This document shows, piece after piece, positions 3,425 through 50,000 of a stretch of 64,000 nt of DNA; within the stretch, counting starts at the first letter, position 1, and every line of letters starts with the position of its first letter. A program made the position numbers and the translations under genes. Source of the DNA: Nymphaea colorata (Eukaryota; Streptophyta; Magnoliopsida; Nymphaeales; Nymphaeaceae); assembly GCF_008831285.2 (NCBI RefSeq), contig NC_045138.2, forward strand, positions 5,983,205 through 6,047,204, given 5' to 3'. The notes beneath the pieces were generated by a model that saw nothing but the letters and a program-made list of their open reading frames with translations, had not been told where the DNA came from and searched no databases.

Positions 3425-4830
3425 CTAAAAGAAAGAGAAAAACAGATTTGCTTTAATAATCAGATCTCTTGATTTTTAATAGAAATTAAGATTACAAGTT
3501 TAAAAAATAATTTTAGAAATTTACATACTTGATCATTTTTTATGCATGCAGAAGAGGAACTTGGGCTCAATAAATAGTATTGGGTAAGTGTTCTAAGCCT
3601 CCTTAGGGGTTTATTTTGAAGCACTTTTGAAACCTATGTAAAGTTAATAATATACACAACGTGGAAAGATGTTTTTGTATGTATGTATCAATATTAAAGC
3701 AAATATATCGTTTAACCTTAGGGGTTATGAGAATACCCTCTCCCATCATCAAGTATGAGAGGAAGCTTAAACTATGAGGAAGAATTGTCACTATAAAAGA
3801 CGTTAACAAAAGTAGCTCTTCTCATACAATTCTTGTGCTCCATTCCTATCAAGAATGTGATTCTAAAGTGAAATCACTCTTTTGATCAAACTACAAATAG
3901 GGATGTTTAATAGATGGTTATCAAGAAAATCAGGATTAAGAGCGGTTAAAGAAACACTTTAAAACTACGAGAGAAAAATAGAGATTTTAAAAGACAAATC
4001 GGCAAGAGGGAGAGAGGGGGAGAGAGATGTTAATAAAAAGGAGAAAAAGAGACTTTACGAGGGAAATCAAAGAGAGAGAGAGAGAAGAACGAAGAAGAGA
4101 GATGGTGTGGAAGAGAAAGAAAGAAATTAATTAAAGAGAAAGAAAGAAAAAAAGTTTTTTAGTAAAAAACGTAGAGAGAGAGAGATGAAGAGAGAGAAAC
4201 CTAAGAAAGAGAGAGAAAAAGATTAATAGAAAGAGAGAAAAGGGGATTTTAAGAAAGAAATTAAAGAGAAAATGATTAACAAAAGAGGGAGAGAGAGAAT
4301 GAATTTTATGGAGAAGTCAAAAAGTGAGAGAAAGAGAAAAAAATTGAAGAGAGAAAAGCGTAAGCTTAATAAAAGAGAGAGAAAAAGTGCTTTTAGAAAA
4401 AAAAAATCGATGAGTAGAGAGTTTTAAAAGAGAGAGAGTGAGTGAGATTAATAAAAGAGAAAGAAGATATTTTAAGACGTTAATGAAAGAGAGGCAGATA
4501 AATAAAAGAGAGAAAAAAAGATTTTGATTTAGAAATAGAAAAAAAAAGGAGAGGGGGGAAAGGGAGAGAGCTATTAATAAGTGAGAAAAGAAAAGGTTGT
4601 AAGAGAGTAATTGAAGAGAGAGAAATAGATTTAAAAAAAGCCATAAATAGAGGGAAAAAGTGATTAATAAGAGAAAGAGAAAGAGATAGTTGCTGGTGTA
4701 AAGGTAGAATTTTTGATATTCTAGATTGTATCAAATATTTATTAAGATAATTATGCAAAAAATATTGTAGCAAATTTTATTTTGAATTATAATTTGCAGT
4801 GTGTATATATATATATATATATATATTCAA
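3020..4830 (+). repeat. Purine-rich (GA) repeat family, copy 1
   Basis: Two arrays (about 3020-3345 and 3960-4690) consist of degenerate units built from GATTAATAAAAGAGAGA, AAAGAGATTTTAAGAGAGAAATC and AAAGAGAGAGA, recurring about every 50-65 bp, with almost no pyrimidines on this strand apart from T. They flank a non-repetitive core (3480-3960) that recurs at 13085-13415. The right end (4690-4800, with TATGCAAAAAATATTGTAGC then a TA run) recurs at 14115-14220 and 15620-15712. Open frames across it on the minus strand encode only Leu/Ser/Phe-rich low-complexity sequence and are not genes. Superfamily unknown. Confidence 0.7.
3364..3422. repeat. (AT)n microsatellite
   Basis: An uninterrupted AT dinucleotide run of nearly 60 bp, inside GA-family copy 1. 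Confidence 0.97.
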
Positions 4831-5199
4831 CTCTCTACTGGGTTGTAGGTTTCTCCCACTCGCATGGACTTAGGACTGTGTTCTACGCTAGTTGAGAAAT
4901 CCACTGTTTTGTATTTCAAATCTATGAACCCATTGAAATGTCATGGATCTGAAATGAAAGGTGTATTGTAAGATAGCTAACAATTAAGAGTCTTTCTACG
5001 AACCTTTACTAAAAACACCATCAGTCATTTCAAAAAGTAATAACTTGAAAATAAATTTGATCTGAATCTCTATCTGAATCCGATTGAAGATTTATGTATA
5101 GTTGAATTTGATCAGATGTCATTTCTTAAAGCTGAATCTGATCTGATTTCTTAATTAGATTGGATAAGCGATTCAAATAAGATATATTGACATCCATAA

Positions 5200-5591
5200 G
5201 TGATTATTTGATGAAGCCAGAATTGTGGATTTCTAGAATCAAAATTCTCATTTTTTGCTGAAATGAGATTGCATTATCAATCGAAGAATATTGATTCTCG
5301 AATTATTGGTTGATTGTTGAATCAAAATTCTAGAATTCCAAAATTTTATAATTTTTTTCATGTTTCTTTAAGGCACGTGCATGTTATGAAGGTTGTAATT
5401 CGTCAATTATAGAATTTGAATTTTTGTTTGATCAAACATGGAATTTTAAATTTTGAAACCAGAATATCAGATTATTAAATACAAAGGAAAACTAGAAATG
5501 GAATTTTCATTTTAATTATAGTTGGAGGTATAATTTAGTTTTTACAATTTTAATTATAGAATCAAAATTCAAGGCCATCAAATGCCCTCTC
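5200..5591 (+). mobile_element. Tourist-like MITE, copy 1
   Basis: An AT-rich element of about 390 bp with inverted ends (GTGATTATTTGATG at the left; CATCAAATGCCCTCTC at the right). It is flanked by TAA on both sides (5197-5199 and 5592-5594). Its right end closely matches 26870-26908, and the complement of its right end matches the left end of 20219-20618. There is no coding capacity. A 3-bp TTA/TAA duplication is typical of PIF/Harbinger-derived MITEs; that classification is inference. Confidence 0.65.
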
Positions 5592-5639
5592 TAAAAGAAC
5601 CATGATTCATCACTAAGACCACCATAAACAGTCGCCACA

Positions 5640-6125
5640 CAATAAACCATGGCTACTACCAATCTTGCACATCGAATGGCAAAAAACTTTTACCCCATCC
5701 TTCTTTTTGAACATCGGAATACAATAAAGGATGACTTCTGATTATTAATACATTGCCCTACACTGCTTGCAAACTTTGTTAACACTTTTCTAGTAAAACA
5801 AACATATCTTGGCTCAGCTACTAACAATTATCATGTCATCAGCAAAAAATATACTTGGAGATTCAAAACAATTATCACCTGCCAAAGAAGGAATCATAAT
5901 ATTCTTTCTCCGAATTTCTCTTCTAAGACATCTTGAGAATATCTCCTATTAATAGCTAAGACATCTTGAGAATATTTTTAGTAGAACAAACATATCTTGG
6001 CTCAGCTACTACATGCAATGAAAAGCAGCTGAGAACCCCTTGACATAATCCCTTCTTACTACCAAAAATCTTTCCCTCTCTCGTATTAATAAACATTGCA
6101 CAAAGATTCACTTCACTTAGTTTAA
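5640..6125 (-). mobile_element. LINE (non-LTR) reverse transcriptase relic
   Basis: On the minus strand, three RT landmarks occur in canonical order. A KIFGSKKGLCQG segment near 6045-6085 corresponds to the family's KGLRQG block. The catalytic block FFADDMIIVSS lies near 5825-5855. An INNQKSSFIVF segment lies near 5715-5755. Stops and frame changes interrupt all of them. A segment containing ACAAACATATCTTGGCTCAG is repeated at about 5797 and 5977. It is a non-functional remnant with no endonuclease recognisable. Confidence 0.7.
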
Positions 6126-6429
6126 AAGACCATATTCTTGAAATGATTGATCACCCCTCACATGCATTAATGGCAATAAGAACCTAAGAATTTGTAAAGA
6201 GGCTGTTAGAGTTTGTTGGCACATAAGGAAATGAATGAGAAAGAGGGAAAATTGACATCACTTTAGATCAATGTTATGAGATTGTTATTGCATACATACT
6301 ATTGGGTCTATTCGGTTCAATATTCTCCATCTGCACATAGTGAGTTTTACCATTTTAGGTATTTGAATGTGTAGGACTGAATTTCTCTGACCAATTATTT
6401 TCGGTTTTTATTAACGTTGAGAGTTGTTG

Positions 6430-17385: not shown

Positions 17386-19996
17386 ATGGTGGGAGTAATA
17401 GGTGCTCTTGCAGAAACAGCTATTTCTAATCTGGTGGCCGCTGTCACCAATTTGTTGAATCATAAGGCAGATGTTGTCTTGCATGCCAACGATGATCTAA
17501 AGAAGCTATAGAGGAAGCTGAAAATCTTCCAAAAGGCCATTAAAGATGCAGATCACAAGCCCTTTTTAAGTAACGAGTGTGACAGAGATCTAGAGAGAGA
17601 TCTCAAGGATGTTCTTTATGATGCCAAGGACATCATCGAAGAAGATCGAATCAAAATTGAGGTCACCAAGAATGATAAGGGTTCTACTTCAACGAACAAG
17701 GTACGCAAGTGGTTTGATGAACATGTTTCTTTTCCCTGTCAACTTGGCAACGAAATCAAAAAAATCAATGAAAGGGTTGATGAAATAGAAAAGGATTGGG
17801 ACATGGATCTGCTCAAACCAAATCCAAAGAGAATAACCAGGGCTCTATTGGTGGTGAAGATGGCAACTCTCGAGAGACAACCCATCACATAGGTGCACAA
17901 CCACCCATAGGAAGAGAGAATGATAAAAGGGTGATTGTAGAAAAACTCTAGTCAAATGGCTCAGGACAGAGTAGAATGACAGAGAAGCATGATGTTTCTA
18001 TTATTTCTATTGTAGGAGAAGGCGGGATCGGCAAGACTACTTTTGCAAAAATGGTCTTTAGTGAAGTCAAACAACAGTTCAAGGAACGCAGGTGGTGGGT
18101 TTGCGTTTCTGAGAGGCCAAACCATAAGGATTTATTGAGGAAAATCCTGAAGGAAGTGTGCAAGGGATCTACTGCAGGTCTTGAGAGTATGATTTCTTTG
18201 AGTGACTTGTGCAAACAAATACAGAGTGAGCTCTGGAAGAAAAGATTTTTGTTGGTCTTAGATGATGTATGGGAACTAGATTGGTGGCAGGGAGGGGTAG
18301 AGAGCACTCTTATGGGAGGTGCAATGGGGAGCAAAATTTTGATCACTAGTCGAAATATAGATGTCTCCAAAGGGGTTGGAGCTTTATATATGCATAGATT
18401 GCCATTATTGCCAAAAGATGAGAGTTGGAATTTATTTTTGAAGAAGGCATTGAGGACCAAAAATGAATTGGTGAAACAAAAGTTGCAAGATATTGCAAAA
18501 AAAATAGTGAAGAAGTGCGGTGGGTTGCCACTTGAGGTCCAAACAGTTGGGTCCTTAATGCGAACAAAAAGCATGGAAAAAGCAGAGTGGAAGGTGGTTG
18601 CGGATAGTGAGATCTGGGATTGGAAGATGCCTGCCTCATCCTCTTCCTCTCAATATGATAGCATTCTTCCTGGCCTCATACTGAGCTATGATAACTTGCC
18701 GCCTTATTTAAGCAGTTGTTTCATTTATTGCTGCATTTTTCCAAAGGATCATGAGATCAAAAGGAAGCGATTGATCATGCAATGGGTGGCACATGGATTG
18801 ATTGAAGAAAAGGAAGACATAGATGTGGAAGTGACAGCAAAGCAATACATTGAAGATTTGATAAGGTGTTCCTTGATTGAAGAAACCGATGATAGAACTT
18901 ATGGGGGCTCTTGTCTCAAATTGCATGACGTTTTGCATGACCTTGCCTCGTATATAGGTGGAAAAGAATATAGGCATGCCTCTGCTACTGAAAAAACACG
19001 CCATCTGTCATTACTTGGTGTAGACGATGCAGAAGCAGTCATGCAATGTAATGCTTCAGGAGCAGCAAATAAGGTGTGGATATTATTGAGTACATCCTTG
19101 TCTTCAGTGGAATTCACCAATTTCAAGCGGTTGAGGGTATTGTCATTGAGGAGATATCGAATGGATGAGCTACCAAACTCCAGTGAATGCCTTTCACTTC
19201 TAAAATATCTTGATTTAAGCTGGTCTCATGTGAGATGGTTGCCCAGTTCAATCGGCAAACTCTGTAACTTGCAAACATTGGATTTAAGTCATGGTCAAAT
19301 TAAAGAGTTGCCCGAGGAAATGGGCAAACTGTGCAACTTGGGGTATCTTGGGTTGGAAGAAACCTTGTTTTTGGAATTTATGGCAGAAGGCTTGGGGAAG
19401 CTTACCAATTTACGGACCTTGCATAAGTTTTTGGTATGCGATGACAAAATTGGAGTCATTGAACGGGTCTGAATGTGGCAGCCTAGAGCAAGTAGTAGAT
19501 GCCTGCACTGAGGTCATTGAAGGTGGATGGATGTAATATGCAAAGACTCTTGCTAATATGCCGGCCTTGGAGTTGTTGAGGGTAAGATATTGTGGCAGCA
19601 TAGAGCAAGTAGCAGAGATGCCTACACTCAGGTCACTGAAGGTGGTCAGATGTAAAATGCTGAAGGCTCTTGCTCGCTTGCCCAACCTCATTCTCTTGAG
19701 ATTGGATGGGACGGCTTTGGAATTTAACGTTTCCACCCTCCCTCAAGATTCTGACATTGAAGGACAACAATACTGTAGATCTCAATTGGGCAAAGGCGCC
19801 TGATTGGGTGTGGGGTCTCTCCCAACTGGAGGAATTGTGCCTACGATGTTTCACTAAGGACATCAGCTTGGGAGGCCGCTGGCAATGCCTTCCAAAACTG
19901 AAAGTTCTTCGGCTTTCTGACTTCCCCAATCTGAAGTCTCTGGTGGACGTCAATAATATTACTCCCCAACAAAATGAAACATGTCCCAACACTTAG
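17386..19996 (+). pseudogene. CC-NB-ARC-LRR (NLR) disease-resistance pseudogene
   Basis: The ATG at 17386 opens an Rx-type coiled-coil domain (MVGVIGALAETAISNLVAAV). The frame stops at TAG 17509-17511, yet the same frame continues with CC sequence to about 17830. A frame change between about 17815 and 17850 restores GEDGNSRETTHHIGAQPPIGREND, and another stop lies at 17949-17951. From 17976 a 498-codon frame is open: P-loop GEGGIGKTT, RRWWVCVSE, kinase-2 LLVLDDVWE, GSKILITSRN, CGGLPLEVQTVG, FIYCCIFPKDHEI and the MHD-equivalent LHDVLHDLA. LRRs follow (RVLSLRRYRMDELP, LKYLDLSWSHVRWLPSSIG, LQTLDLSHGQIKELPEEMG). The frame ends at 19472; LRR sequence continues in other frames to the stop at 19994-19996. 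NB-ARC motifs are intact, but the gene cannot encode a full receptor unless introns or assembly errors explain the breaks. The paralogous tail at 3-188 suggests an NLR cluster. Confidence 0.85.
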
Positions 19997-32563: not shown

Positions 32564-35500
32564 ATGGTAAACTTATTAACTAAAGTCTAATATATACACC
32601 GCAATTTGTATTTGTGCTTAAACTTGAAATTGTATTTATATTTGCTGCAAGTTCTATCTTTTCTTCTTGAATTCTGTTATGTTGTTGAATTATGGGGTTT
32701 GTTTCATATTAAGATCTGATTTGTTCAATTGCCGAATCATGAATTCTAATTTCTATGTGTCTCATATTAACTCTTAAGGTATTGAAGTTGAAATTCTGTG
32801 TGTTGTAGATTGAAGTGTTTTTATATTTCCGTGCACTTAATTTCTTGTTGCTTTAGTTGTTCTTGTCGTTGATGTTGTTATCTCAATCTTGGTTTTCCTG
32901 TTTTGCTTGTTCATTTACAAATTTTAGTATTTTGAACCATATTAGGAGTCTTTTCACGCACAGAAGGCATTGTTTGGATGGGAGATACTACCATTTATAG
33001 TGTTTTGTTAGGACAAGTTGATTTGGCGATGAAACTATGTTCTTTGAATTGTTTTCAATATGATTCCATGATTGTAGTAAATTAAGATGATTGTGGTTTG
33101 CATATAATGGTCACCTATATTTAGGAAAAAAAAAATCATTGTCCAAGGTTATTGGTTTTTCATAGTTGCTTGTTGAAGTTCATTATACTGTCACATAATG
33201 CCATAATGCTATAAGCTCAAATTGCAGTCTACGACTTGCAGTCAATCCAATTTCTCTGCTCTCTCGAATTATGCTTGTTTCCCTTCTTCTTTATTAATGA
33301 GCAGAACTTGTGAAAATGCTGGAGTAATAGGCTTTATGATATTTTGGCCAAAACTTTTGGTATTACAAACGTATGGATTTCCATTAAGATTGTTGTGGTG
33401 TTTCATATATTATAGTTATAGGTTTTATTATGGTTTTCATTGATTTTTGTTATTGTTTTTATTGTGTTTCTCCATTATAGGTTGCTCTTGAGAGCATTGA
33501 TGTTAGAGAAAATGGTGGTATCGATGAAGAGGAAACACATATAAGAGTTGAAGAGAGCGACTCTTCAGAGGATGAGGTACATAGGCAAATGTTATAAATC
33601 TTACAAGTTATAGCTCTTCATCAATGATTTGAATGTGCAATTGAAGGCAATCATTTCACTTGATGATGATTTTTCTGTTGTTTTCTGTCTCTTTATCCTT
33701 AAGTTCTTGCTATTTTTTGTAGGTTCCTTCTAGAAATACTATTGGAGATGTCCCACTGAAATGGTATGAGGAAGAGGAACACATTGGCTATGACATATCA
33801 GGAAAGAAGATAAAAAAACAACCCCGAAAGGATAAACTCGATGCATTTTTAGCAGATACTGATGATTCAAAGAACTGGTAAGCTTTATTCAGTGCCTGTA
33901 TTCCCGTGCATGGCATGTGTGTCTTGCATACTTCATTGATAAAGCTATGCCAGTAAGGTATCATGAGGTTTTTTCTCACCTAGATTTTCCATCAGAACAA
34001 ACTTGTATTTATGTTTAAGAGTCTGTGTATGTAAAATAATGTTATTTGATTATATTAAACTTGTACTGCAGAAAACTAGGATTGGGTAAGCTGAAATAGC
34101 AGAGATATGTAAAGTGTAAAGCGTAAGCCAAGCCATAAGAAAAGGAAAAACAAAAAAAATATCAAAACTTTCATGTGTGTGTCCAGAGCTTTCCTGTTCA
34201 CTTTCTTTGTTTCTGTCCATTCCAGTTGCTTTTATATGTTGAACTTGTCATGCAGAAATGTGTGTGTCCGGAGCTTTTCTGTTCACTTTCTTTGTTTCTG
34301 TTCATTCTATTTGCTTTTTCATGTTGAACTTGTCATGCAGAAAGTTAGCAATAGGTAAGATTAAACAACAGAGATAGTTTTTATATATATGAAACTTTTT
34401 CCTTTATGTGCTTCACTTTTACATCAGTCCAATTTACAGAATTTGAAAAGTTACAACTGCAGACATGGTTCCCCGTATGTCAATTTTTTAGAGCTTATTT
34501 TATACTTGTTTTTCTGTTTATGTGCTTTACTTTTACTCCCGTGTAATTTAGAAAATATAAAAGCTGGCTCTTTAGACTGTTTTTATGCTTTTTGTCAACC
34601 TTCTTTCCTTTCTTTGACTGTTTAAATTTGGATGCTTCTGGAGGAAAGAAGCATTTTACGGCTTAAGAGTTCTGTATCTCTTTTCAGGCGAAGAATATAT
34701 GATGAATACAATGATGAAGAAGTGGAACTGACAAAAGAAGAGACTAAGATTATACAGAGCTTGTTAAGAGGAAAGACTCCACATGGTGATGCCAATCCTT
34801 ATGAGGTATGCATTCAAACATGCTTTGACAGGTTTTATTTGCTTTAACTTGTTAACCTTCTCAGTTTTTGCTTTGATCAGTGTTTTACATGCATCCCTCT
34901 TCGTTAAATCTTTGGTTCATAAATGCAGCCTTCTGTTGACTGGTTTGATTGGGAAGGAAAAGGGCATCCATTATCTAATGCTCCAGAGCCAAAGCGACGT
35001 TTTATACCATCAAAATCGGAACATAAGAAGGTAGTTTTAGTTGTGTTCTATAACTCCTTTCTCAGGGCTTCAGGATGAGATAACCTGAACTTGTTGCTTT
35101 TTTTTGGACTGGCTTTTTTTGTTGTTGTTTCAGGTGGTTAGCCTTGCTAGAGCAATCAGGAAAGGATTAATAAAATTTAGCAATCTAACAGAGGAAAATG
35201 ATCAGAGTTATTTAATGTGGGGTGATGATTCTAGTCCTAATGATAATGCAGAAAAGGGTTCAATCTATTTCCCACCACCAAAACCAAAAGTGCCTGGTAT
35301 TTTCATTTTTTACTCCTTTTTTTTAGTATCAAATTTAAGATATGCTGTATTTATTTCTGAGGAATGTTTGTTCTAGCGTTTGGGAGTAGCTTACATTTTC
35401 CTTTTCCTTTTGTGATGAAATTGACAGTGACTGGGTACACAAATATGCATGGTCTGCATGGTGACTTGGCCATGCCATGGCAACTTCATTTCTAATATCA

Positions 35501-38500
35501 GATTAAATCTGCAAATATACTTGTAGAAGATAGTTATGCATTTTTTCTGAAGTGTCTATTATGATGTATACGTGCATATGAACTGGTATTTTAATCATAT
35601 TTGTTTTATTAGTACATGCATATTCATCCTATTGCACATGAGTATTGGAACTTTATAGCATGTGTATAAACTCTATGTTATATATATGTGCATGTTTAAT
35701 GTATGCATATATTGTCAAACAGAACACTTGCTTCATCATTGTCATATATGAAGATACATCATCTGGTAGAAATATAAATTGGCTCAATCATGATGAAGCT
35801 TGTTTGACTTGGCCAATCTTATCAGTTTCTTGGTTCTATTCATTTAACCAGGTGTCTGATCCGGACTTAGTCAACCAAGTGACTGGTTGACTTAGTGAGT
35901 TTCAATGCCTTTTAAATTGAAGAAAATGCTGTTATTTGTGCTTTTTATCATCTTGTTCAATTTGCCTTTCTTATGGAAGTTTATTTGTATGATGACAAGT
36001 GTGGGTTGAGTTTATGTTTTTTCTCCTCATTGTGTGGATCTGGGATTTTGCTTTGTGCAGGGCATGAAACGTCATTTCGTCCTTCTGTTGAGTTTATTCC
36101 TACACAGGAAGAGATAAATTCTTATGAGCTCATGTTTGAGGAGGACCGTCCAAAATTTATTCCAAGAGGGTATGCTTATACATCTTTGTGAACGTCATAT
36201 ATGATGAGTACCTTTTTGTGGTTAATGTTGATTTTTAACATTCTTCATTTTCTCGTTGTTTGTGTTGGCAGATATGAGTTCCTTAGAGAGGTTCCTGCTT
36301 ACATGAATCTCAAAGACTGTTTTGAACGCTGTCTTGACCTTTACTTGTGCCCAAGGACTCGAAAAAAGAAGGTTAGTTTGGACATATACTGCACATCAAA
36401 CATATTTTTTATGCTTGTCATCTCGAGACTAAAAGCTTTTGCAATGATTATTTGCTGTTTCTGCCTTCTACAGCTTAACATTGATCCTGAAGATTTAAAG
36501 CCTAAGCTTCCAAACAAGAAAAACCTGCAGCCATACCCGACAACTTGTTTTCTGGAGTACAAGGGCCATACAGGGCCTGTTACATCAATTTCTATTGAAT
36601 CATCTGGTCAATTGATTGCTTCTGGTATGAAAAACAGTTTTCTTTTCTATAGTGGTGAGATAAATTATCATCTTGAACACTTAACGTCAATTGTTTCATT
36701 CTCATGTTTGAAGGTTCAATTGATGGAACTGTGCGTATCTGGGAGATTGAAACCAGTAGATGTCTGAGAGACTGGAGATTTGATGAGCCAATCCTGCATG
36801 TTGCATGGAATCCAATTTCTGAACTTCCTATCTTGGCTGTTGCTGTGTGAGTGAAATTTTTTATTTACTAAATGTTCAATTGCATTAATCCACTTAATTC
36901 TGAACCTATTCTTGCTTCAGGGGACAAGATGTGGTTCTTTTGAATGCAAGTCTTGGAAATGCTGAGGATGAAGAAAAGGTTAAAGACCTTCTGCATGTTT
37001 CAGCACCAGTTGAGACAGATGAATCAAGTGAGCTACTGATGCTGTATCTGTTAATTTTGCCAACTCATGTATGTTGGTCCTTATAATGTACAATATGTTA
37101 GGTAATAAAGTTTCTCCTGTGACCTGGGCTCAACATGGTACACATGATGGCATCAAGTTAAAACACTTCAAAGTATATCTCTGTCACTTTTCTCAGTGTA
37201 CTTTGTGAACGTACAAGTCACAACATACTGTGTTGCCTAAAATATGCCTGTGTAATGTTGTGTCTAATTTTTATCTACTGTGGCAGGCTGTGTCATCAGT
37301 TGAATGGCATCGGAAAGGTGACTACTTCACAACAGTTGTACCAGATGATATCCATGGGCTGAAATTATTTGTCTTAGAACTATATATATATGATAGTTCT
37401 GTAAACCTGGTTAATATTTTCTTTATATACTTACAGTTATTTGTAAGTTTGTCAGCAAACTTGTAGGCCTTTATATCCTTCTGTTGGATTCCTTGACTTC
37501 TTTACACGGGACTCCAGATCAATACTTATACATCAGCTGTCAAAGAAACTAACACATAATCCATTCAAGAAGTTGCACGGAATTGCTGTTTCAGCTGTTT
37601 TCCACCCTTCTCGTTCAACCTTCTTTATTGCTACTCGGAAGAATGTACGTGTATATGATCTTGTGAAACATACACTTATTAAAAAGCTTGAGACTCGTCT
37701 TCGAGAAGTGTCATCTATTGCAATCCATCCTGCAGGTTTGTGTCCTTGCATTTTCATGGTCACTTTCCTGGTAACCTCAGTCCTTATGAATCTGCTTTGT
37801 ATAGGTGACAATGTAATAGTTGGGAGCAAAGACGGAAAACTCTGTTGGTTTGACATGGACCTCTCATCTCGGCCTTACAGAACTCTGACCCTGGGGTATG
37901 TCAGCTGCTGAGAACTCTTCAAATATTTTTCTCTTTGTTGAATGGATGTGACAAACAGATAAACTATTTCCTGATATCTGTTTCTCGGGAGAGTTGCAAG
38001 ATCACATTTTCTTATATTTGTACCCTAAATTGATCAATTTAGTATCATTTTCTGGATTTCCATTTGCTATTGGTGTTTGTCACAATGATGACACAGACAC
38101 AGACAGCAGGCAAGCCTTTATTGAGGTTAATGTAATTTCTTCCAATTTGCAGGAATAAATCCAAGGACATTAATCATGTTGCCTTCCATCGTTCATATCC
38201 ACTGTTTGCTTCATGTTCGGATGACTGCTTAGCGTCTGTCTTTCACGGAATGGTGTATTCAGATCTTAATGAGAATCCTTGCATTATGGCGCTTGAGACT
38301 CTAACGGGACATCAAAGTGCAAATGGCAGAGGTGTGTGTTTTCTTATTGCATGTTCTTTGGTTATTTTTGTATGTATGTCTTCATTAAGATAAAGTTTTG
38401 AATTCCACCATTCGAGTTTTTTTTTTGTCATGCTCAATATGCAACGGGTATGCTCCATGTTTGGTGTGTGGTTGCAGTAGTACTCACATTTTTCTATATG

Positions 38501-38707
38501 GAGAGGGACTTGAGTTTCTCTCTGCTTTTGATGCCACAAAAAACTATGGTAGTCCAAGTCCATCAGGGAATATTAAGAACTGTGTAGTTCTACTATAAGT
38601 ATGGGTACCGGTACGGGTATGAACCACTTTCAAAAAACTTAGGTGCGGGAGTACAACCGTACACACCCGTGCACATATATATCAAAAAATTACAAGCAGA
38701 ATAACAT

Positions 38708-38797
<90 letters not shown>

Positions 38798-40255
38798 TAC
38801 AAACAGAATAACATATTCACACACATATATATATGCAAAAATTACAAACACAATAACATGTTCATAAATCGTGATGATCTACCAGAAAACTGAGAAAACA
38901 ATGCAAAGCACACATGGAAGAAAAACACAAAAAGATTCATAAAACAGATGATCCACCAAACAAATGGAAAATGAAAATTGTGTTATTGGAAGAAAGTTTT
39001 AAGGAGGAACTGGAAAACCAAAACCAGAACTCTAACAAAACAGTTGCATCTATCGACAATATACAAAAGGACACAAAAGCAACGATTTCGATTTTCAAAC
39101 ATGACCCTGTTCTCAAGGGACAAAATTGCAGCGCACAACTGGACTGGTTGTTAGACTGAAGACACACACCAGGTTCTATCTACAACTATCAAGAAGTGCT
39201 GTTGTGGTCAATAATTCCATGTTCAGCATTACGAGAAAAGAAGAACCACAAATGAAACCAGGCAAAGAAGGAACAGAACCAGGAAAAGCAAGAAGAGGGA
39301 AAGGATTGATATTAAAAACTGAATAAAAAACAGAAAAGCACATTTAACCAAGTTCAGGAACTAAGAAAACAATTGAAATGCTAAATCTCGTCTATTAAAT
39401 CCCCTAAAACCCTACAAAGAACAGAACAGAAAGTGAAGGGCCGACGAAAAAGCCAAAACCGGCCAAGAATGATTACGAAGGCACAAACAGAAAACGGAAG
39501 AACAAAAAATGAAGAAAGGAGCTCGCTCTTCACAAAACAAACTAGATTTTCAACAGATGAAACCAAAAGCTGCATCGGAAAGCACTAAAAACCTTTATCT
39601 TTGTCGTTCGCCACTCGCCGTTTGCAGTTCGCCTCTCGCCTCTCTCTATTTGCCATCGCCGCTCGCCGTTTGCCGGAGTGGAGAATCGCCTCCTGTTGTC
39701 GGTCTTCACAGGTCTCGGTGAAGAAGAGTGAAGAACGAACTTGCGTATTTTTAACGTGAATAAAGTAAACCGCGTTAAATTGTAGATCACGTTTAAAAAC
39801 AAAAAAAAGGTCGAAATTGGACTTGGTCAACTTTCACCGAGTCCGAAAATGGATGGACTCGACCTTGGGTGCATTGACCGTACCCGGTACGGTCAACGCA
39901 GCACCTGCGCCGCACCCATACCGGTACCGTTGTCGAACCGGTACCATGCGGGTACTCCTCCTTAAATGGAGTACCCATGTGACATAGGTGCCATGTTGTA
40001 GTTTCAGTCCTTTGATTTTGTTGTCGTCCATGGATTTCTTGCTTTAAATTGTTGAAACTATAAGTATGAAATAACATGTCATGTTTCCTTCTGAAAAAGG
40101 ATAGAGATCCTTTTGTTTAGTCATTATAAAATAATCAAACGCTGATCTGTTCTTTTCATATCCATACAGGAGTCCTGGATTGCAAATTCCACCCTAGGCA
40201 GCCTTGGCTGTTCACAGCTGGTGCTGATTCAATAATTAAGCTGTTTTGTCACTAA
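32564..40255 (+). CDS. BOP1: Ribosome biogenesis protein BOP1 homolog (WD40), 17 coding exons
   Basis: Coding exons: 32564-32566 (ATG only), 33481-33576, 33723-33877, 34688-34805, 34929-35030, 35134-35296, 36061-36169, 36272-36371, 36474-36624, 36714-36846, 36921-37027, 37102-37172, 37287-37347, 37508-37735, 37805-37895, 38153-38331, 40170-40255. Phases agree at every junction and the sum is 1953 nt (650 aa plus stop). The N-terminal BOP1NT region shows [36 protein letters not shown] and LSNAPEPKRRFIPSK. Next come FEEDRPKFIPRG and ERCLDLYLCPRTRKKK, then WD repeats from PTTCFLEYKGHTGPVTSIS to the C-terminus VLDCKFHPRQPWLFTAGADS. BOP1 acts in the nucleolar PES1-BOP1-WDR12 complex for 60S subunit and 27S pre-rRNA maturation (family knowledge). 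All introns are GT-AG except 37348-37507 (AT-AC). The start is inferred: the exon at 33481 has no in-frame ATG, and an acidic N-terminus shorter than usual results. The last intron carries a transposon. Confidence 0.9.
37348..37507 (+). other. U12-type AT-AC intron of BOP1
   Basis: The upstream exon ends in codons for TTVVPD plus one base, and the downstream exon begins GGGACTCCAGATCA, giving VVPDGDSRSIL, the expected BOP1 sequence. No GT-AG choice restores this frame. The intron begins ATATCCAT (U12 donor consensus ATATCCTT, 7 of 8) and ends in AC. TTCCTTGAC at 37489-37497 matches the U12 branch-site consensus TTCCTTAAC at 8 of 9, with the branch A 11 nt before the intron end. An exact ATATCCTT also occurs at 37473-37480 but would leave only 35 nt of intron. 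Confidence 0.88.
38598..39995. mobile_element. hAT-like non-autonomous element in the last BOP1 intron
   Basis: The left end has CTATAAGTATGGGTACCGG; the right end has GTACCCATGTGACATAG. These are inverted and resemble the ends of the elements in UVR8 introns. Inside are a (CA)n(TA)n run (38711-38794), three copies of an AAATTACAARCAGAATAACA unit, and a GC-rich stretch (39590-39725) with repeated TCGCC. On the minus strand that stretch looks like a plant 5'UTR, possibly captured. I found no clear target duplication. An 81-codon frame (38914-39159) has no recognised domain. Confidence 0.5.
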
Positions 40256-41220
40256 TCTATAATTTTACAACGAGAATGCACATCATCAACTGCAGCTCTG
40301 GAAATAGAACACACCACTGGAAATTTTTGGATTGTGTACATATGAAGAGTCTTGGCAGCTTCTCTCCGCACCTTGGCTGGTTATCTATGCTGGTTAATTT
40401 ACCTGTATGCTAAAAGAACCATAGAGGATGATTGGGAACAGATGGGCAGTCATGTTGATAACCTTAGGTAGTGGTTATCACGGATAGTATGCAAAGCTTT
40501 ATCAGACCTCTCGAAGCCCATCCAATGAGGAAAGGTGCATTGAGAAATTAGGTAAGTGGGCAGATCATCAACATTTTCTCAAATTAATGGCCATCGTTAT
40601 TTTTATATACCGCAGAATGCTAGTGGTTCTCTGATCTCTTATTGATAGGGAAGTGTATGCTTTTCCTACTCCTTGGTGCTTCTGTTCTTTTGTACCTTTA
40701 TGGACAAGTCTCTAGTGTTTATTTTTTGAAACACGAAATTTTGTTTAAGGTTAAAAAGAAAAACTCCATCTCTCTCTCTCTCTCTCTTTTGTGGGAACCT
40801 GAGCGGCAAGGAATTTTTTAAGTTAGATTCATATTATTGAGTTTTTCCAGGCAGAAAAAAGGTAACCTGCAGTTTCTAACCTAAGTTTTGGGCCAAGCTG
40901 CATGGTGTATTGTTATCGTGGTAGAATATCTCCCAGTGTTGTACTGGTTGCTTTATTTATTTAATCATGATAACCTTTGAAGAAAGGAAAGCTAGGGGGA
41001 CCCCGTCTACCATGCCGTTAGGCAGATCAACTCGTCGCCCTTGTTTACCACATTGGGTATTACTACTTGCATAATATGGACATCTTTTTGGTCCATTTTT
41101 AAGTCACTTCATGTTCATCAATTACTTCAATTATTTTTATATCATGGCTTGAACTTTACTTCATGTATTTTTGTCTTAAGCCATCCGAAGCTTGCTATAA
41201 GTTCAATTATTTTTCTGCCA
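40256..41220. other. BOP1 downstream region with a dispersed repeat
   Basis: After the stop codon comes the expected 3'UTR, with no strong polyadenylation signal identified. From about 40660 to 41000 the sequence follows the same segment order as 8090-8330, including a CT run and AACCTTTGAAGAAAGGAAA. No further gene is recognised. Confidence 0.45.
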
Positions 41221-47050: not shown

Positions 47051-50000
47051 AACCAAGCCGAGCCAGACTAGGTCCAGGCTCGGGTTTCGGATGTTGGAAC
47101 GCCCGATGCCCGGGCCTACCCATTCCATACTGATTCATTCAGCACTGGTCCTAACTAACACCCCATGTCACTAAGAAATAAGTTATAGTTGTTTATGGGA
47201 AATAAAGTAATTTAGTGCATGTTTATTAGTTATTATTTTGTAGTTGCATTCATTTATTATATCTACTTGATAGTTGCTATTTTATAGGTATGTTCAACTT
47301 TTTTATCATTTTGCAATAAAAGTATACTAAAAAATTTGGACCTGACCCAAATGAGCAGCCAAGCCAACTCATTGACCCGTGACCAAGTAGTCAGCGGATC
47401 TGAGTCCGACTAACGAGTTTGCAAACTACCATTGGGAACAGAGTCAAACCAGGTAATTTCAAAATCGGGCAAAATGAAGAAAAAAGCACAAATTACTATA
47501 CAGGAATCAGAAAGGACAGAAAAGCGAACACTTGTTTCAGAGCCATTCAGCATACATTATCATCAGGGACAACTGCATATCGATCCGTTGGTGACACCAA
47601 AGATTTGCCTGAAACATGCATTTGTCAGCTAGAAACTTCAGCATTTATGGTAACTACAAGGCAGCTTCCGAGAACTGAATATAATCATACCTGATAAAGG
47701 ATCAGTCCTTGAATAGTCCATCTGCTCACAACCAGATCCATCTACACTCAACACTTCAATGACCTTGGGAAGATTTCTACAAGGAATGCATGATGTGAGA
47801 TATATGTTCAACAAGTCAAAACCGCACGAGATTCGGAGATACAATTGCCAGACAGGACAGTAATGGAACCGTCATTGGATTTTTATTCAGTTTTTGGTAT
47901 ATGACCAATTTATCAACGAGCATATGTGGTTGACCTATTTCTTTTGTTTCATGCCATACATATTTAAATTTCAAAATATAGTGGAGACTTAGAACTTCGT
48001 CTTGCAATACTAAAAGAAGGGAGAACTTCAATAATGAAACGACAAAAGGAACACAATATTAATAGTTTCCTAGTTACATCATACTAAATTTTAATGACAA
48101 CCACATGTGAATTATGCTTGAACTTGCCCAATACATGTTCCCTTTCTTCTCGAAAACCAGAACTACATGCGTACATCCATTAACTCAGACAAAAGAAGGT
48201 ATAGAAGCAAGATACACATACTGTTCATAAAACTTTGCAGGTGCATCATTGTAAATTTGTAATCTTGAAAGTCTTAAAGGATGAGCCTTGGAGGATCAGG
48301 TGGGTAGCTTCTGGCCATTCTAGTCCAACCTAGATCATTGGGGCTCGGTGTTTGTTTTGACTCGAAAATATAGGATTGAAATCTTACAGATAATTATGTG
48401 GAAGTCAATTTTACGATTATCAACAAGCTTGTATTTGTTTTAGAGTCTCTCTCTTTTGACATACTTTGATTTTATTTGAGATCACTTATAGTAGAATACT
48501 CTTAAGGGTATATCCATCCCTAACAGGTTCAATAAGTTACCTGTGATCAAGCTGATTTCACAATTATCATTAAGCTTGTATTTGTTTGAAGTCTCCTCGC
48601 TTTTGACAAAACTTAATTTATTTGAGATGATCTATAGAAGGACACTCTTAAATCTTAATGGTATATCCATTCCCAACAGGTTAAATAAATTAGCTGAGAT
48701 CTTTGTGATAGAAATGTCCAGGTCTTGCAAAGAAGTTGATTTACATGTTCTCCACATAAAAACTCCAATTCTAAAACATGTTCTAAAGAAGGGAAGGTTT
48801 TATACCTGTCTGAAAAACAAAAAAAATCCCTACAGCTTTTAAAGGTGGACCAAATGTCAAATAATAAACCTTCATGTTGTAATAGTAAATTAACTTTGCT
48901 GCTTCTTCAGTATCATAGCTGAAAGAAATACCTAGAGTCTTGGTCATATAAGAGTTTGTAAACAGAGTAACAGACTACTTGAACAGTAAACAACCTAAAC
49001 TGTCCCGAACGATAGGCCGATGAAACCCCTCCTGTATTACATAGTTATCTAATACTATGTATCAATAACCAGCAGATTATTACCTACCCATCAACACTGG
49101 CCTGACAGACCCATTAAACTAGCCATTTATGAGAGCAGACATGGGCCGCCAACAACAGGCAGATCATATACAGTTTCAAGCTAATTGCAGTTACCTATCA
49201 ATGGAGTCACCATGTCCTAGTTGACCACATGTGCCCCTACCCCAGGAGAACACATTTCCTTTGTCTGTAATTGCTAAGGTGTGCCTCCATCCACAGGAAA
49301 CCTGGACTACCTTCTGCTGACAGGCAACAAAGAGATGGAACCAGTGAGGCACCAAAATAAACCCACCTTCGATGTGAAAGAATAAGAAATCTACCTGTTC
49401 AGATGGAAATTTAACTTCCTGTGGAGAACAATGATCAATGAAGTCACCAACACCAACCTGCCCGAACTGTAAAAAAGGAATACGGCATGAGACTTTGAAC
49501 TCTTCAAATAACAATGCACCATGAAATACTAGCCAACACCTATTTGACTAAGATGACTACCGTGCAAGATAGAATAAGCACCACAAAGTATAAAATAAAT
49601 CATGTTATACCAAATAAAATTAAGCATAATGAATTACTAAGGGAAAACCACTAAATCTGGCTCCATGGAGGCCAAAGTTCATCCATAGCTATGCCAAAAT
49701 AATGATTATCCAATTCAATGCAGATTTCTTATGGATCTCAACCAGGTAAATGTCAACTGAATGAGATCAGGGCCCAGGCTTCGAGATAAGGAACAACCTG
49801 TGAAGATATGCAGGTTTCAGCTTCATCTGTGTTCATCTTCATTATACAGCATGGCAAAATGAAGCATGTGGAACTAGACCAAATATTTCATTGAGGTAGA
49901 TAGTTAGGGAAGGTAAAGGGCCAGATTTGTTCTAAAAAAATTCTTTATAAGTAGACACTAATTTCTCAAGGCAAATGACTTATGGTATATGCTTACCAAG

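Follow-up and report, generated by a model that had tools for sequence, protein, structure and literature searches.

A probable U12-type AT-AC intron in a plant BOP1 gene

The BOP1 gene of this plant very probably contains a U12-dependent AT-AC intron at positions 37348-37507, as predicted from the sequence. We searched a genome of 407.8 Mb (783 contigs) and analysed in detail one 64-kb stretch of it, hereafter the window (C1:5983205-6047204). The BOP1 coding region occupies 32564-40255 on the plus strand and is composed of 17 exons encoding 650 residues, followed by a TAA stop codon. The reading frame has no internal stop and ends with LFCH; the model is least certain at its start codon, an ATG sitting directly 5' of an intron. 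The predicted protein contains the BOP1NT domain (Pfam, 1.4e-91) and WD40 repeats, and among proteins of solved structure it matches human BOP1 (8.5e-160) and fungal ERB1 best. Fifteen of the 16 introns have GT-AG ends, the exception being intron 13. The best reading of intron 13 is an ordinary U12-type AT-AC intron, which seems to add one more good case to an established intron class and implies no new mechanism.

Intron 13 is 160 nt in length and is flanked by exon 13 (37287-37347) and exon 14 (37508-37735) on the plus strand. The upstream exon ends with CCAGATG at 37347 and the downstream exon starts with GGGACTCC at 37508, giving the junction context ATG/ATATCCATG ... TTCCTTGACTTCTTTACAC/GGG (slashes mark splice sites). 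The intron is in phase 1 and splits Gly codon 457, the first base of which belongs to exon 13 and the remaining bases to exon 14. Its terminal dinucleotides are AT at 37348-37349 and AC at 37506-37507, the latter at the end of TTTACAC. The junction cannot be shifted without changing the mRNA: the intron starts with A but the next exon with G, and the intron ends with C but the preceding exon with G.

Both internal signals of the U12 class are found in intron 13. The 5' splice site ATATCCATG (37348-37356) agrees with ATATCCTT at seven of eight positions and carries C at +5 and +6. The single mismatch to ATATCCTT is A for T at +7, and the donor departs from the consensus at +9 (G) as well. An A at +7 is also carried by the rice U12-type intron GTATCCATCA (PMC7367187, Table 1); that intron is GT-AG, and its maize and Arabidopsis counterparts are listed there as U2-type. 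The branch-point sequence TTCCTTGAC (37489-37497) is an exact TTCCTTRAC, with position 37496 as the branch A, 11 nt short of the 3' end of the intron. In U12-type introns the branch A lies roughly 10-20 nt from the 3' end, and the distance observed here fits this range. In sodium channel genes, AT-AC introns of the U2 type share the terminal dinucleotides, but they have G at +5 where BOP1 has C (PMC2831892). In this respect intron 13 does not fit the U2-type AT-AC class.

Several other splice-like elements are present within the intron. An exact ATATCCTT is located at 37473-37480, one of six in the window on both strands. It is probably a chance occurrence and is unfit as the intron 13 donor, because it lies only 35 nt from the intron end. 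Moderate U2-type sites occur at 37429-37455, namely acceptors ending at 37436 and 37455 and a GTAAGT donor at 37443, and are possible cryptic sites. Part of this region (37429-37448) reads as an ACTTACA-loop-TGTAAGT hairpin that doubles as a U2-like acceptor, with GTAAGT 6 nt on, and possibly represents a cryptic micro-exon or chance.

The product of AT-AC splicing aligns gap-free over the junction with the human, yeast and Chaetomium homologues. We scored alternative junctions against these three proteins, using donors at 37291-37480 and keeping the exon 13 start and the exon 14 end fixed. Among 145 in-frame open GT-AG, GC-AG and AT-AC combinations, the AT-AC junction ranks first (summed score 651), followed by a GC-AG junction at 37358-37517 (646), which is shifted ten bases downstream and encloses an intron of equal length. 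The best in-frame open GT-AG placement ranks 23rd (570). The first-pass annotation of this DNA had given exactly these coordinates, with AC at the end and a branch A that precedes the 3' end by 11 nt, and had stated that splicing at 37347/37508 restores the frame, which agrees with the alignment. Its further statement that usable GT-AG boundaries are lacking holds within donors 37291-37480, but it overlooked the GC-AG junction.

A different explanation would be that the main form is spliced at other sites, as a GT-AG intron combined with a skipped exon or shifted exon ends, and that the AT-AC signals are due to chance. We assessed splice sites with a matrix built from BOP1's own 15 introns of this type, which serves as a rough yardstick. 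It finds fair U2-type donors nearby at 37318 (5.0), 37410 (5.6) and 37463 (5.3), together with fair acceptors at 37455 (4.8), 37594 (5.3) and 37436 (4.6, slightly below the lowest real acceptor). The best in-frame open GT-AG placement, however, adds residues that are missing from the homologues. Skipping of exon 13 stops the reading frame after 450 codons, and this exon holds W, H, G and D residues invariant among the four aligned proteins. The GT-AG alternatives enumerated here are those that leave all other exons unchanged. Altogether we regard this explanation as extremely improbable.

The U2-type GC-AG intron at 37358-37517 is the closest competitor of the AT-AC intron. The protein comparison leaves the two undecided, since their open products are of equal length, the summed scores are close (651 vs 646) and human BOP1 alone favours the GC-AG junction (197 vs 190). 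We therefore reject the latter on the strength of its donor and acceptor, the protein hardly discriminating. U2-type GC-AG introns combine an otherwise strong AG/GCAAGT-like donor with a usual acceptor. The candidate donor TGG/GCTGAA and its acceptor are both weak by comparison. Our first matrix was trained on GT donors only and was unfair to GC, and we rescored the donors leaving out the +1 and +2 bases. The GC donor context then scores -4.2; one of the 15 real donors is lower (-4.7), and the other 14 exceed it (-0.5 to 6.7). Its predicted pairing with U1 (-2.8 kcal/mol) is weaker than that of all 15 GT donors of BOP1 (-4.2 to -8.0), and its acceptor (-1.4) is outscored by every one of the 15 real ones (4.7 to 15.1). 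On the same matrix, the AC end of intron 13 (6.1) falls among the real acceptors. Moreover, a GC-AG intron would leave the U12 motifs in register unexplained, and we consider it very unlikely.

The snRNA pairing points in the same direction as the AT-AC reading. Among the 16 BOP1 donors, that of intron 13 shows the poorest pairing with U1 (+1.4 vs -4.2 to -8.0 kcal/mol) and the most favourable one with the U11 of this genome (-2.2, the next being -1.0). It also tops the pairing with U6atac (-3.4), with a slight lead over intron 12 (-3.1). A comparison donor, ATATCCTTT, pairs better than the intron 13 donor with both U11 (-4.4) and U6atac (-4.5). The U12 of this genome has AAGGAA, the full complement of TTCCTT; the U12 duplex energy of intron 13 (-8.5) ties with those of introns 2 and 10 and is non-discriminating.

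Components of the minor spliceosome are found in the same genome. U6atac has five matches above the cut-off (the weakest at 34.9 bits), and U12 and U11 have one each. For U4atac there is no match at E <= 0.001 in this genome, a result that does not imply absence; the controls of this search gave no match either. The CCDC84/CENATAC family is represented by three exon matches on contig C2, and the DIM1 family by six exon matches spread over three genes. One of these, on contig C4 (97 residues), matches human TXNL4B (2.4e-26) better than yeast DIB1 (3.8e-10) and TXNL4A (4.2e-09), and by sequence is a predicted TXNL4B/DROL1-like gene. In plants the TXNL4B orthologue is DROL1, mutations of which impair Arabidopsis AT-AC introns (as cited in PMC11039992). 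In human cells, CENATAC plays the corresponding part for AT-AN introns (PMC8280824).

We also considered how often the signals would arise by chance. The branch motif alone is unremarkable: TTCCTTRAC occurs once on both strands of the window, and shuffles average 1.94. Likewise, ATATCC followed by NT is found 14 times in the window against 10.5 expected, and of 120 single strands of 64 kb that we simulated, 9 contain a loose U12 architecture at some position. The improbable feature of the signals is their place, in register with the protein. In the 17 registers that preserve protein length, p is 0.0043 for the ATATCC donor and 0.00012 for the branch motif with AC, and both together appear in 0 of 2,000,000 simulations, which were first-order, with motifs and registers picked after inspection of the sequence.

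The U12-type AT-AC identity proposed in the first-pass annotation is thus supported by the protein, the junction rank, the in-register motifs, the donor pairing and the minor-spliceosome parts. The annotation had also called AT-AC introns a small minority of U12 introns; a minority they are, but not a tiny one, as they make up 26% in Arabidopsis, 22% in rice, 23% in soybean and 13% in maize (PMC7367187, Table 2). With shares of 13-26% in four plants, the subtype is uncommon rather than exotic. Intron 13 resembles plant and animal U12-type AT-AC (A-type) introns in its terminal dinucleotides, C at +5 and +6, exact TTCCTTRAC, 11-nt branch distance and phase 1. It differs from them in its donor, which is weakened at +7 (A) and +9 (G), and in its late position (13 of 16) in the gene. 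Plant minor introns lean more often towards the 5' part of genes (PMC10639083).

Two plant core genes may be compared with BOP1. Intron 4 of plant CBP20 is U12-type GT-AG, and shares with the BOP1 intron the spliceosome class and the location in a conserved core gene, whereas the BOP1 intron is of the AT-AC subtype, for which Arabidopsis requires DROL1. About 230 Arabidopsis genes have U12 introns, some of them essential, such as QQT1 (PMC5853960). For both BOP1 and QQT1, minor splicing should be necessary to make the product of a core gene; the QQT1 case is backed by rescue of a minor-spliceosome mutant (PMC5853960), whereas that of BOP1 is a prediction.

The BOP1 AT-AC intron is possibly catalogued already in this or another plant. 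In our literature search, which reached article texts but neither supplements nor intron databases, none of the matches listed connects BOP1 with a U12 intron. The name BOP1 has no occurrence in the main texts of PMC2831892, PMC10639083, PMC2426677 and PMC6865273. One paper combining "BOP1" and "AT-AC" (PMC10998384) is irrelevant, as its BOP1 is a leaf-patterning gene. In barley, a circular RNA is listed for the relative of this gene (PMC4891351), assigned there to AT2G40360 (WD40 repeat-like protein), the locus of Arabidopsis BOP1; the passages of that paper on this gene make no mention of U12. Given this circular RNA, BOP1 pre-mRNA splicing may be unusual elsewhere too.

On the AT-AC reading, established knowledge suggests how intron 13 would be removed. 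U11 and then U6atac would read the UAUCC 5' splice site, U12 would pair with UUCCUUGAC with the branch A bulged out, and the AT-AC ends would require the CENATAC/DROL1 branch of the minor spliceosome. If intron 13 is kept, the resulting frameshift would lead to a premature stop: the frame is open for 495 codons and closes 542 nt upstream of the last junction. Transcripts with such premature stops are generally detained or degraded. BOP1 is a member of PeBoW, and plants in which PeBoW is silenced are impaired in growth and 60S biogenesis (PMC5014167). Since retention gives a premature stop and BOP1 is needed for 60S, BOP1 supply should need the minor spliceosome; full-length BOP1, and so normal 60S assembly, would require minor splicing of the BOP1 transcript. 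For AT-AC-specific splicing in plants, the 60S assembly factor BOP1 is a candidate target. Its gene model is well supported at a place where gene finders restricted to GT-AG would probably err.

One may go further and propose that intron 13 is a switch, in which AT-AC splicing by CENATAC/DROL1 sets the amount of BOP1 and tunes 60S production to growth. The position of the retention stop ahead of the last junction is consistent with this proposal, as are the high baseline retention and CENATAC dependence of AT-AN introns in human cells (PMC8280824), the DROL1 phenotype in Arabidopsis (as cited in PMC11039992), the CENATAC and DROL1 homologues both found in this genome, and the effect of PeBoW silencing on 60S biogenesis and growth (PMC5014167). 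However, a pan-eukaryotic survey argues that neutral processes may account for much of minor-intron evolution (PMC10639083), and intron 13 shows no extra fold stability over its shuffles (z 0.00). We find such a switch unlikely, and it is likewise doubtful that the CENATAC/DROL1 arm limits BOP1 supply here and ties 60S assembly to one splicing subtype. Regulation of BOP1 supply via minor splicing is speculation, and no special regulatory role is required to explain intron 13.

Searching the whole genome with BOP1 gives seven matches, five belonging to this gene and two to a partial second copy; none of the seven is a spliced retrocopy across the junction. One scan each of bacterial/archaeal contigs and of viral contigs finds no BOP1 relatives. 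The second copy is located on contig C8 at about 24.200-24.202 Mb (positions 3960-6410 of locus L013) and matches parts of window 35890-40447 at 92-93% identity. In the 9.9 kb that surround it, exons 1-6 and the counterpart of window 37242-37981 are missing. Because intron 13 is gone together with exons 13-15, this copy is uninformative on the conservation of the intron. It looks like a duplicated pseudogene.

Intron 16 of BOP1 contains an insert of about 1.4 kb (38596-39990), and the C8 copy has a nearly empty site at this place. The insert is perhaps a transposable element, as it has inverted repeats resembling GGTACCGGTAC close to both ends. Elsewhere in the window, a disease-resistance-type gene with NB-ARC (3.8e-49), winged helix and LRR is located at 17512-19472 on the plus strand, and upstream of it an Rx_N match (8.1e-06) falls just short of its cut-off. 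An RCC1-repeat exon is found at 49191-49547 on the minus strand (8.3e-15).
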